From a virus, in IMG/VR virus record IMGVR_UViG_3300047548_000327, positions 1 through 21,559 of that record: 21,559 nt of DNA; one strand, 5' to 3'. The translations under genes and the position numbers were made by a program. The notes below the pieces were generated by a model. It worked only from the letters and a program-made list of their open reading frames with translations. It was not told the DNA's origin and did no database searches. Positions 11,067 to 20,125 of this stretch are shown here, piece by piece. Position 1 is the first letter of the stretch. Every line of letters starts with the position of its first letter.

Positions 11067-13325
11067 TCAGGTCCAGCCATGGGCCGAAATCGGCCTGATA
11101 TCCCGCCGCAGGTGCTGGTACATCGCGTCTCCCCCCACGCTGTTGATATGCAGCATGAGATACTGGAGGGCTTCCGCAACGTGCGAGTGCTTGTTCTTGT
11201 CGATCAGGTTGTCGCCGGTGGGCTTGTACCGATACCCGCCCATCATCGCCGCCTTGAGGTGCGTACACCCCGGATCGACCAGAAACGCCGGGTCGCCGTC
11301 CACCTGCCGCATGAGGAAGTCGTCCACCGCGCTGATGCGCGCCGAGATGTTGTTGGTCTTGGCCGGGATGACCTTGAACCCCTCGGCCCGCACGATGTCC
11401 ACCGCGCTGCGCTCGTCGGTCTGCGACCTCGCCGTTCCCGCCGGATCGACCACCACCATCACCGGGCAGCCGGTGAACCGCTCGTACAGCAACGGCTTGA
11501 GCATGGTCCGCACGAACCGCTGGATGCCCATGTCGTAGCTGACGCATTCCGCCATTATGAGCGAGCGTCCGCGCGGGTCCTGCTGTCCGATCACGGCTGC
11601 TGGCGTGAGCCCAAGGTCCATACCGACGATGACAGGGCGAGTGCCATTAGTGATTGGGCGCAGGCTGCTGTGAGCCATATGGTAGTCTGGGCGGAAATAC
11701 TTGTAGACAGGCATACCAGCGAGGCTAAGGCCATATTCGCCGTCAATATAGACGCGGATGTATTCCTCGGATCGGCCTTGGGTGTCATAGTATCCTTCCG
11801 GAAGATTCTCGATATTCTCGGCATAGGCGCTGCGCCCTGACGGCTGCTTGAACACCTCCCAGCCGTTGTCATTGGGGGAAACCCCGTCAGCAGGGTCGAG
11901 ATGCTCCATCTGGTAGTAAAACCACGTATCCATGGTCGGGGGGTTGGTATCCATGAAGATACCGTGCCATGTCGGACCGCCGTCCTTGGCGCTCGGGAAA
12001 CGACCTACACGCTTGGACAAAGCGTCGATGATATCGGGGTGGATGTCCCGGCACTCGTTTACCCATGCAAACGTGGCTTCCAGTGAGTTGAGGTTCGCCA
12101 CATCATCCGCATCATCAAGGGCGCGGAACATCACTTCGCACTCTACGTCACCGATGGACAGGTGATACGTCTTGGTCGTCTTGAGATAAACTCCGCAGGG
12201 GCCGGGAGGAAACCAATCCAAAAATGATTTTATTGTCGTATCTTGCAACTGGCGGGCGGTCTGTCGAACCACGATGCAGCGCGTCCTGCGCTTCCCATTC
12301 TGATCCGGCTTTTGCATTGAAGCTCGTCGAATAACTTCAAAGCAGCAAGTAACACTCTTACCGCTGTTGTGATGGATAGCACCATCCACGGTCACATAAT
12401 TGTTCGTATCCAAAACTTGCATATCCCAATACGACCGCTTGACGGTCTCACGCTCGACCGCTAAGATGGTCCCGTTGGATATGGAGCTTATGTATGAACG
12501 AGAACACGCAGCGGATTGTCGCCCTTTCGGACGGAACCCGTTCGTCAATTGAGATTGCCAAGCTTGTAGGTCTGTCGCCACGTTACGTGCGGAAAGTGAT
12601 GCTGCGGCTGAACCTGCCACGCTGGGGCGAAGGAGCGCAGCCGGGAAAAGAAAATCACCAATACAAGACCGGGCGGCGGATAGACCTCGACGGATATGTT
12701 CTCGTAACCGCGCCGAAAGACCATCCGTATGCGCGTCAACGCACAAATCGCTCTGGCAAGCTGATATACGAACACCGGCTTGTCCTCGAACAACATCTTG
12801 GTCGATACCTGCTTCCTGAAGAAGTCGTAGACCATATCGACGGGCTGACGCTGCATAACGCGCCAGAAAACCTACGGCTGTTTGCGTCGAATGGGGAGCA
12901 TCTTGCAACGACAACGACTGGCCGCACAAAGCTCTGGTCAGCGCAGGGGCGTCAGAACATAGGGACAAGGACTGACCGGGGGAAAGTTCTTCAACGCGTC
13001 GATAGCTACGGCCAGCGGCGTAAGTCAGGTGATGTCCGCTTGCGGCAAATACTCCTTGCCGCGTTACAACTCGGTACAGATAGTCCGTTCCTTTCGGGAA
13101 CGCTCCACCACACCAAGAAAGCTGGAATTGACCTGTCTTTGCGTTCCACGATACAACGCGCATTGGACGATCTATACGCCAGATGGGCATAGGCCCATAC
13201 TCCGTCAAAACCTCCGTATCAGGTGCAACACAGCCGACAGGCCCCATGAGCACGCGCATCCGCGCGTTGCTCTCCATGAACAGTTTGCCGGTGGGCGGCG
13301 GGGTATAATTGATCTCAATCGCCAT
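11067..13325 (-). CDS. terL: Terminase large subunit (TerL) containing an in-frame intein
   Basis: TerL is the ATPase and nuclease that packages DNA into proheads. The 752-codon ORF is 463 residues of extein plus a 289-residue intein. The extein starts MAIEINYTPPPTGKLFMESN, and its P-loop is split as GPVG (28-31) | intein | SGKS (321-324). Later motifs are intact: Walker B-like FAWVNE at 419-424, motif III MDTNPP at 458-463, and an RNase H-like nuclease with VGMDLGLT (Asp570), MVVVDPAG (Asp627) and HSHVAEALQYL (Glu718 where an Asp is usual). Without splicing the ATPase would lack a P-loop, so splicing is needed for packaging. The ORF begins eight bases after the stop of a 63-aa gene and ends before a strong terminator. 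TerL assignment is strong. Confidence 0.95.
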   Translation of the reverse strand: MAIEINYTPPPTGKLFMESNARMRVLMGPVGCVAPDTEVLTEYGPMPIWRIDRPMRVVSWNAKTGQFQLSWCGGAFPKGTDYLYRVVTRQGVFAASGHHLTYAAGRSYRRVEELSPGQSLSLCSDAPALTRALCGQSLSLQDAPHSTQTAVGFLARYAASARRYGLRLLQEAGIDQDVVRGQAGVRISACQSDLCVDAHTDGLSARLREHIRRGLSAARSCIGDFLFPAALLRPSVAGSAAASLSARNVATDLQAWQSQLTNGFRPKGRQSAACSRSYISSISNGTILAVERETVKRSYWDMQVLDTNNYVTVDGAIHHNSGKSVTCCFEVIRRASMQKPDQNGKRRTRCIVVRQTARQLQDTTIKSFLDWFPPGPCGVYLKTTKTYHLSIGDVECEVMFRALDDADDVANLNSLEATFAWVNECRDIHPDIIDALSKRVGRFPSAKDGGPTWHGIFMDTNPPTMDTWFYYQMEHLDPADGVSPNDNGWEVFKQPSGRSAYAENIENLPEGYYDTQGRSEEYIRVYIDGEYGLSLAGMPVYKYFRPDYHMAHSSLRPITNGTRPVIVGMDLGLTPAAVIGQQDPRGRSLIMAECVSYDMGIQRFVRTMLKPLLYERFTGCPVMVVVDPAGTARSQTDERSAVDIVRAEGFKVIPAKTNNISARISAVDDFLMRQVDGDPAFLVDPGCTHLKAAMMGGYRYKPTGDNLIDKNKHSHVAEALQYLMLHINSVGGDAMYQHLRRDIRPISAHGWT
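12439..12467 (+). promoter_or_regulatory. Sigma70-like promoter for the antisense HNH gene
   Basis: TTGACG (12439-12444), a 17-base spacer and TAAGAT (12462-12467) sit about 27 bases before the HNH start. Five of six -35 bases and four of six -10 bases match consensus. The DNA simultaneously encodes residues about 287-296 of the TerL precursor, within the C-terminal splicing domain. The expected start is near 12474, giving a leader of about 20 bases that holds the GGAG ribosome site. Confidence 0.65.
12494..13192 (+). CDS. HNH homing endonuclease encoded antisense within the terL intein
   Basis: This 232-aa protein begins with a helix-turn-helix-like segment (SIEIAKLVGLSPRYVRKVML, 18-37) and a GAQPGKENHQYKTGRR linker. 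An HNH_3-type core follows: YVLVTAPKDHPYA (68-80), YEHRLVLEQHLGR (92-104), VVDHIDG (111-117) and NAPENLRLFASNGEH (122-136). Likely metal and catalytic residues are His94, Asp113-His114, Asn126 and His137. A C-terminal region (residues 140-232, with VRLRQILLAALQLGTDSPFL) follows and is ordered in appearance. GGAG lies seven bases before ATG 12494, and a promoter lies upstream. The whole gene is complementary to residues 45-278 of the TerL precursor, codon position 1 facing position 1. It probably cuts intein-less terL at the P-loop to spread the intein; this is inferred, not shown. Confidence 0.92.
   Translation: MNENTQRIVALSDGTRSSIEIAKLVGLSPRYVRKVMLRLNLPRWGEGAQPGKENHQYKTGRRIDLDGYVLVTAPKDHPYARQRTNRSGKLIYEHRLVLEQHLGRYLLPEEVVDHIDGLTLHNAPENLRLFASNGEHLATTTTGRTKLWSAQGRQNIGTRTDRGKVLQRVDSYGQRRKSGDVRLRQILLAALQLGTDSPFLSGTLHHTKKAGIDLSLRSTIQRALDDLYARWA
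13183..13198 (+). other. Perfect stem-loop overlapping the HNH stop codon
   Basis: ATGGGC-ATAG-GCCCAT forms a 6-bp perfect stem with a four-base loop that contains the HNH stop codon TAG. No T-run follows, so it is not a classical terminator. It lies in DNA encoding TerL precursor residues 43-48, just after intein block A. It could affect HNH mRNA stability or be a chance palindrome. Confidence 0.4.
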
Positions 13326-19276: not shown

Positions 19277-20125
19277 ATGCACCTCAACGACCGTGCGCTG
19301 CTTGTGCAGCTAAACATCTCGCAGTGGACAGCCCGCAAGTTCGACAAGCGCGTCACCAAGGACGTAGCCAACGCTCATAGCGTGGTGGAAGCCGTGGGGC
19401 GCTATAACAAGTCGCTGCTGCCCATGAACGACCAGCTTGATCTGGTCCACAAGAAAGCCAACAGCATCCGCGCCGAGTTCTACCAGAACACGCTGCCGTG
19501 GGGTATCGAAGGGACACAGCTTCTGCCCACGTCGAACTACCTTGAGTTCATGACCAAGTTCCGCAAGTACAAGGGCGAGTGGCAGTGGCTCACTCAGGCG
19601 TTCTGCATGAACTACGAGAGCTACATCGAAGACGCTCGTCGGACACTGGGTTCGCTGTTCAACGCCGAGGATTATCCGCATCCGACAGCCATCGAAAGCA
19701 AGTTCAAGATGGACTTGGCGGTGTTCCCGGTGCCCAGCACCGACTTCCGCGTCAGCATTGCCAGTGACGAACTGAACCGCATCCAGCAGGACGTGGAGCG
19801 CCGTGTGCAGGAAGCAAGTGCTTCCGCAATGAAAGACGTATGGCAGCGTCTCTATGACAAGGTGAAACATATTGAGGAGCGTCTGGCTAACCCCAGCGCG
19901 GTGTTCCGTGACACAATGCTGGAGAATGCCCGTGAATTGTGTGAGTTGCTGCCGCGTCTCAACTTCGCTGATGATCCGACACTGGAGCAGATGCGCCGTG
20001 AGGTGGAGAGCAAGCTGATTAGCTATCACCCTGATGCTCTGCGCAATGATCCTGACCTGCGGCGCGATACTGCTGCCAAGGCGAAGGAAATCATGGATCG
20101 TATGGCTGTGTTCATGGGGCAGTGA
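19277..20125 (+). CDS. DUF3150-like protein of the MoxR-VWA module (282 aa)
   Basis: MHLNDRALLVQLNISQWTAR opens a mostly helical protein. Other segments are SLLPMNDQLDLVHKKANSIR, FYQNTLPWGIEGTQLLPTSN and a long charged helical stretch DELNRIQQDVERRVQEASAS. The opening 'l...lnIs.Wtark.Dk.vt.ev' and the 'tlpw...G..llp..ny..f' motif match my memory of DUF3150 proteins, found between MoxR-type ATPases and VWA-like metallopeptidases in phages. A role as adaptor or substrate linker is an inference. AGGAG lies six bases before ATG 19277. A shadow frame on the minus strand is ignored. Confidence 0.78.
   Translation: MHLNDRALLVQLNISQWTARKFDKRVTKDVANAHSVVEAVGRYNKSLLPMNDQLDLVHKKANSIRAEFYQNTLPWGIEGTQLLPTSNYLEFMTKFRKYKGEWQWLTQAFCMNYESYIEDARRTLGSLFNAEDYPHPTAIESKFKMDLAVFPVPSTDFRVSIASDELNRIQQDVERRVQEASASAMKDVWQRLYDKVKHIEERLANPSAVFRDTMLENARELCELLPRLNFADDPTLEQMRREVESKLISYHPDALRNDPDLRRDTAAKAKEIMDRMAVFMGQ

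Follow-up and report, generated by a model that had tools for sequence, protein, structure and literature searches.

Several mobile elements combine a splicing unit with an endonuclease gene, and the closest known counterparts of the one described here are inteins with in-frame endonuclease domains, such as those of the DnaB type and those in the terminase large subunit (TerL) of mycobacteriophages (PMC5050341). Our subject is a TerL intein with an antisense HNH gene in the viral record IMGVR_UViG_3300047548_000327; the whole stretch analysed, positions 1 to 21,559 of that record (21,559 nucleotides), is referred to as the window. The element shares with the in-frame type the splicing fold, Cys1, the His-Asn end and the terminase P-loop site. 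It differs in that a gene of its own, located on the other strand and preceded by promoter boxes, encodes the putative endonuclease; the in-frame insert is a linker predicted to be mostly disordered.

For its regulation, the nearest parallel is T4 I-TevI of the td intron, for which autorepression has been demonstrated: its operator is similar to the homing site and overlaps the promoter of the gene (PMC2988022). Both elements have a promoter inside the mobile element and a homing-site-like operator over that promoter, both predicted in our case. I-TevI differs in being a GIY-YIG enzyme encoded on the sense strand of a group I intron, with a late promoter and an RNA structure on the ribosome-binding site (RBS). 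Nuclear group I introns of Didymium carry His-Cys endonuclease genes that are antisense to the host gene of the element and for which, as here, an own promoter has been proposed; these are, however, eukaryotic introns whose insert lies in a ribozyme loop and does not oppose a protein-coding frame (PMC9548176). The ShiLan phage-methylase insertion resembles our element in that an open insertion conceals an HNH gene in a different frame, and PMC11855218 reports for it neither intein splicing motifs nor a detectable RBS. The window element is not of this type, with its HNH gene on the opposite strand and a splicing domain present. Section 4.3 of that paper raises the question of how such hidden genes come to be translated, and the paper cites bioRxiv 2025.01.02.630785 for actinobacteriophage inteins with a "non-canonical architecture". 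In the full-text literature that we searched, which covered few subscription journals and preprints, no antisense endonuclease within an intein was found.

Our results indicate that the window quite probably carries a mobile terminase P-loop intein whose homing HNH endonuclease is encoded as a separate antisense gene, is expressed from its own signals and represses itself through a target-like leader (Table 1).

Table 1. Positions of the terminase, intein, HNH gene and expression signals in the window.
Feature	Position	Strand	Remarks
TerL frame, intein-interrupted, 752 aa	11067..13325	-	Terminase_3 E 2.7e-4; PHROG phrog_2 5.7e-24
Intein, 289 aa, Cys1 to His-Asn289	12366..13232	-	Splits P-loop residues GPVG / SGKS
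N-extein half of P-loop insertion site (GPVG)	13233..13244	-	
C-extein half of P-loop insertion site (SGKSV)	12351..12365	-	
HNH endonuclease gene (putative), 232 aa	12494..13192	+	Antisense, entirely within the intein
Region coding on both strands: intein residues 14-98, in the splicing fold, vs HNH C-terminal part	12939..13193		Both frames constrained
Intein residues 144-246, mostly predicted disordered, vs HNH residues about 1-103	12495..12803		HNH constraint dominant
-35 box TTGACG	12439..12444	+	Antisense to Val(GTC)-Lys(AAG)
-10 box TAAGAT	12462..12467	+	Antisense to Ile-Leu(TTA); 17-nt spacer after -35
Predicted transcription start	12474	+	7 nt past -10 box; placed by spacing only
Pseudo-homing-site (operator-like) motif GGT CCC GTT GGA TAT GGA GCT TAT GTA	12468..12494	+	Likeness to empty P-loop site
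Shine-Dalgarno GGAG	12483..12486	+	7 nt upstream of ATG; GGA common to pseudo-homing-site motif
HNH start codon ATG	12494..12496	+	

Intein and HNH frames in the window

The intein matched DnaB inteins in a profile search (PDB 1mi8, 3.9e-8), and its structural model resembled the NpuDnaB intein 4o1r (Foldseek, 3.0e-7). Cys1, His68, His287 and Asn289 were invariant among 52 aligned inteins, and the +1 residue in the window is Ser. Pfam PF14890 stayed under its cut-off in all five inteins tested. The model was confident over about residues 1-98 and 251-289, with predicted local distance difference test (pLDDT) values below 50 at residues 144-220 and 225-246. The element has the sequence features of an intein together with a predicted Hint-type splicing fold, and protein splicing is predicted from its sequence.

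The antisense open reading frame (ORF) matched HNH_3 (PF13392; 4.4e-8, 33.1 bits vs a family cut-off of 24.8) and belongs over its full length to PHROG phrog_10730 (1.7e-59). Its model was confident (mean pLDDT 86.7), with three N-terminal helices preceding the HNH core. The model suggests that these form a helix-turn-helix; Pfam helix-turn-helix matches of the protein were under cut-off. We regard the product as a putative homing endonuclease that would cut the intein-free allele. Its N-terminal part opposes the predicted disordered linker and its C-terminal part the N-terminal splicing fold, in a phase in which HNH codon positions 1, 2 and 3 oppose intein positions 1, 3 and 2.

Across 170 pairs from 39 sequences at 60-90% sense identity, the differing fraction at sense positions 1, 2 and 3 was 0.149, 0.097 and 0.496 in the C-extein, but 0.235, 0.560 and 0.150 over the linker, where HNH dominates; over the N-splicing fold, where both frames are restrained, it was 0.143, 0.243 and 0.195. 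The sense position 2/3 rate ratio was accordingly 0.11-0.20 in block A, the C-terminal splicing region and the C-extein; it rose to 3.75 over the linker and was 1.25 over the N-splicing fold, both positions being suppressed in the last. These substitution patterns show that the HNH and intein frames are each under selection.

Distribution of the architecture

A search with the HNH protein returned 43 viral contigs, and the same antisense phase was open in all 43; it exceeded 700 codons in 42 and, in L008, ran 547 codons to the contig end. Further relatives came from an HNH profile search (best 80 of 512 confirmed relatives used), an intein-based search (best 80 of 148 used) and a scan of genome contigs, which added one. 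The main set of 109 loci, mostly found via HNH, consists of the window, one contig of a metagenome-assembled genome, three phage records and 104 viral contigs (the window plus L001-L109, minus L044, a duplicate of the window). Intein block profiles trained on 20 of these loci detected blocks antisense to HNH in 107 of the 109: the C-block in 106, and the N-block only in L072, whose locus is cut by the contig end. No intein blocks were detected at the other two, L102 and L048, the latter with its HNH gene in another phage operon. The intein-based route, together with two further scans, gave 90 loci, with a full antisense HNH gene in 83 and a partial, stopped or split one in the remaining 7. The insertion point was the terminase P-loop in 87/87 inteins with defined ends; eight further inteins, with ST, SS or SA loops, were set apart by the end-defining pattern. 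Among the carriers in culture are Pectobacterium phages, Dickeya phage Setonix and Pseudoalteromonas phage PHS3.

Expression signals retained at synonymous sites

The first-pass annotation had proposed that the HNH gene has a complete expression signal, TTGACG-N17-TAAGAT followed by GGAG seven bases before ATG, within the coding sequence of the intein's C-terminal region. Direct reading and a scan found every element in place, in the codons of intein residues about 246-265, immediately before block F (YWDMQVLDTNNYV). The promoter has 9/12 consensus bases. Sigma-70-like sites by themselves are not rare here (6 in 3.5 kb vs 1.9 +/- 1.1 expected), and a promoter, GGAG and ATG in correct spacing occur at two places when both strands of the whole window are considered, vs 0.17 +/- 0.49 in a Markov null of 60 first-order sequences. 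The second such place lies before a 282-aa ORF (19277-20125, plus strand). When the intein codons of the window were randomised synonymously 200 times, its promoter reached p=0.020. Taken alone it is suggestive and would be weak proof; comparison across loci makes it secure.

The same annotation had asked whether the two boxes are conserved at synonymous sites in related inteins. We tested this against each locus's own C-extein codon usage in 65 loci sharing less than 90% identity (of 106 loci, 19 lacked a YWD-type anchor and were dropped, and the remaining 87 were then thinned). The Val codon of the -35 box was GTC in 29/31 (8.3 expected, P 1e-16) and its Lys codon AAG in 35/39 (24.8 expected, P 8e-5); the codon opposite the -10 box was NTA in 38/59 (10.6 expected, P 4e-19), and the Ser codon at the ribosome site was TCC in 34/37 (5.1 expected, P 5e-28). 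Since the loci are related and not independent, these P-values, like those of the tests below, are too small and are indicative only. Other biased columns (-9, -12, -16, -17, -19, -20, -29 and -30) fall at the spacer end, the leader or the HNH start, and a scan without preselected codons gave high scores at -35 and from the -10 box to the HNH start, with mostly low scores elsewhere. Synonymous bias was also seen upstream of -35, at sense codons 0, +2 and +5 from YWD (about 12409-12426 in the window; TAT, GAT and GTT preferred), perhaps marking an upstream promoter element.

The preferences recurred in a hold-out of 27 loci, none within 90% of those used before: GTC in 12/17 (4.6 expected), AAG in 13/14 (9.4), NTA in 16/25 (4.2) and TCC in 11/13 (3.5). 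For this set 35 of the 90 loci L110-L199 were chosen, since most of the rest were additional cuts of contigs that had served before; with L157 left out, the other 34 were reduced to 27, including L174 and L179, in which HNH is damaged. In a codon-preserving sigma-70 test, scored with E. coli hexamer frequencies, p<=0.05 was reached by 35/61 loci (4 of the 65 were dropped for lack of the HNH N-terminus) vs 6/244 C-extein control segments. Sequence comparison thus identifies predicted sigma-70 hexamers, at 15-19 nt spacing, that are better than chance. The upstream box pair is absent from the PHS3 group (L047, L067, L079, L080 and L082); all five loci have instead TTGAC(A/T)-17-(G/A)ATAAT, matching 10-11 of 12, about 30 nt downstream and still inside the intein. 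The relocated -10 box of this group overlies the P-loop-like leader described below.

Conserved boxes and two-strand selection together lead us to conclude that the HNH ORF is a genuine gene equipped with start signals of its own, as the first-pass annotation had held from one genome; its further view, that the mobile unit would be self-contained, gains support from the cross-locus comparison. Its assignment of GGAG as a ribosome site needs qualification. The GGAG is present, and at least four Shine-Dalgarno (SD) bases precede a usable start in 64/66 loci, the starts having been picked with knowledge of this; the GGA, however, also belongs to a pseudo-homing-site motif that had been missed, so that part of the GGAG conservation does not stem from ribosome binding.

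A leader that resembles the homing site

From the -10 box to the ribosome site, the plus strand of the leader mimics, in a fixed register, the sense-strand empty P-loop site of its own host terminase. In the window that site is GGG CCT GTC GGC AGC GGT AAG AGT GTT, and the likeness lies at codon positions 1 and 2. We compared leaders and sites across 66 loci (reduced from 95 by applying a 90% identity limit and requiring the HNH N-terminus), allowing three registers per locus. Of 18 bases, leaders matched 10.0 in their own site, 7.8 in a site of another P-loop type and 5.9 elsewhere in the intein, with 4.24, 4.18 and 1.58 of 6 matching at codon positions 1, 2 and 3. When sites were exchanged among loci, the observed sum of 660 (vs 563.5 +/- 12.6) was never reached in 2000 permutations.

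With the register fixed, 275/396 intein-synonymous bases of six codons matched, vs 138.8 expected, and the 35 loci lacking GPVG gave 105/210 (57.9 expected); the six codons (-12, -9, -6, -3, +3 and +12) were selected after viewing the leader-site column data. Three control registers gave 92/344 (81.2 expected), 59/394 (97.9) and 75/395 (126.5), with some single columns biased, and the hold-out gave 105/158 synonymous bases (55.3 expected). The match extends to +12/+13, being at chance level at codons 0 and +6 and near chance at +9. Where the terminase has an STK instead of an SGK loop, L057 and L089 have AC for GG in the leader, as do 3/6 such hold-out loci; in L057 and L089 the SD is located elsewhere. 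Leader and site were correlated with HNH distance controlled (partial Mantel r 0.35, P 0.001).

These comparisons show that the leader follows the P-loop type from phage to phage, and that an operator-like sequence resembling the homing site lies at the gene's own promoter. By analogy with T4 I-TevI, we infer that the leader is an operator bound by the endonuclease. An I-TevI-type hairpin sequestering the RBS was not found in the leader by consensus folding or covariation: RNAalifold gave no consensus structure, and two hand-drawn stems paired at the rate of column composition.

Alternative explanations

A number of observations weigh against the self-repressing element proposed here. The HNH model had a weak Foldseek result (best 1u3e, I-HmuI, E 0.08), and 26/61 loci missed p 0.05 in the promoter test. 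The leader-site correlation is modest by partial Mantel test, with a raw value of 0.151 among pairs below 55% HNH identity, and the +3 codon showed no excess in the 35 non-GPVG loci at fixed register (13/35, 12.9 expected). Matches of 12/18 or better occur at 15/43066 places in the window, and a 24-nt site query found its best intein match in the leader at 10/63 loci, the window not being one of them, so searching one genome at a time fails to single out the operator. Because the window match is not rare by itself, the case for an operator is a comparative one. Gene and promoter may be real while the P-loop-like leader has no part in repression: it could be left over from an earlier insertion, act as a decoy or an activator site, or be the site of another factor. 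The unremarkable match in the window and the weak correlation among the most distant pairs would fit such an origin, yet a relic or copy would match at the wobble position too, where the leader scores lowest, and the leader tracks the P-loop type even in the ST-type loci with AC for GG. Nor is the leader coding, since many leaders have in-frame stops. We therefore hold this explanation to be unlikely, albeit the most credible of the alternatives.

The remaining alternatives concern the gene and its boxes. The promoter might mainly yield an antisense RNA that controls the terminase, the HNH ORF being secondary; such a transcript would indeed run antisense to the intein and, if extended, to the N-extein part of terL. 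The HNH codon-position rates, however, reflect selection at the protein level, and the SD bases before usable starts (64/66, with the caveat given above) speak for translation, which makes this very improbable. That the boxes simply arise from codon usage at conserved residues of the intein has some initial appeal, as TTGAC is antisense to the frequent pair Val-Lys and TAnnAT to Ile plus a hydrophobic residue. It is already contradicted by the sequence comparison, in which the synonyms go far beyond each gene's own usage (GTC 29/31 vs 8.3, NTA 38/59 vs 10.6) while most codons of the C-terminal block and C-extein lie near expectation, sense codons 0, +2 and +5 upstream of -35 excepted; we give it hardly any credence. 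Least credible of all is that the HNH ORF merely shadows a GC-rich gene. Long shadow ORFs are frequent in the window, but the PF13392 and phrog_10730 matches, the codon-position rates and the confident HNH fold already contradict this idea.

Proposed mechanism and implications

Under the self-repressing model, host RNA polymerase would initiate near 12474 and produce a short leader and the mRNA for HNH, in antisense orientation to that of the terminase. Through its predicted N-terminal helix-turn-helix protein, the gene would have intein-free terminase genes as its targets; the HNH protein would cut intein-free terminase genes at the P-loop, and repair of the cut would copy in the intein and HNH element. 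Binding of P-loop DNA may depend on bases at codon positions 1 and 2; the protein would also bind the target look-alike that covers the start site of its gene, and so repress itself. As the same protein would bind target and operator, the operator must follow every target change. A shift to a terminase with another P-loop would thus require the operator to be rewritten, and hence the intein loop encoded opposite. Mobility is indirectly suggested by protein identities: HNH identity exceeded C-extein identity in 1364/1540 pairs (up to 60% vs 24%), with exteins more conserved than HNH in some close pairs, which is consistent with a spread of HNH independent of the host gene. On balance, we lean towards seeing here a self-tuning selfish element, in which an intein houses an antisense endonuclease gene, its promoter, its ribosome site and an operator imitating its own target, so that the splicing protein carries an imprint of the target.

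Such an arrangement would be a second way for inteins to carry an endonuclease, with splicing protein, endonuclease and regulatory DNA sharing about 870 bp. For the HNH/intein family, it suggests an answer to how hidden HNH genes are expressed, the question raised in the section of PMC11855218 cited above. The loci may also form a natural record of shifts in homing endonuclease specificity: target and operator stand side by side in every genome, and DNA-recognition rules could therefore be read from their covariation.

Variant loci and existing annotations

Some inteins (L174, L092/L190, L094/L195/L196 and L095) are shortened in frame and retain only the C-terminal part of HNH, an apparent decay of the endonuclease with the splicing blocks retained. 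All boxes are lost in L092/L190. L174 has lost the -10 box and kept TTGACA and GGATATGGAGG, L195/L196 have kept a GACAAT and GGAGG, and the signals of L095 are partly kept. These HNH-damaged inteins are too few to serve as a negative control.

Database records also reveal gaps in annotation. Two annotated phage entries were examined: one contains just the terminase frame, the other the endonuclease and a truncated terminase. In Pectobacterium phage Taid (L046, PQ008975.1, 1628-3892), the terminase-intein frame is annotated as a hypothetical protein and the HNH gene is unannotated. In PHS3 (L047, KX912252.1, 1691-3669), a truncated terminase and an opposite-strand HNH are annotated, and the intein joining them is not. 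A further subgroup (L063, L066, L078, L090 and L191) has inteins of 336 aa and a longer N-terminal part of HNH; here the P-loop-like motif is apparently shifted (GCAGGTTTCGAT).
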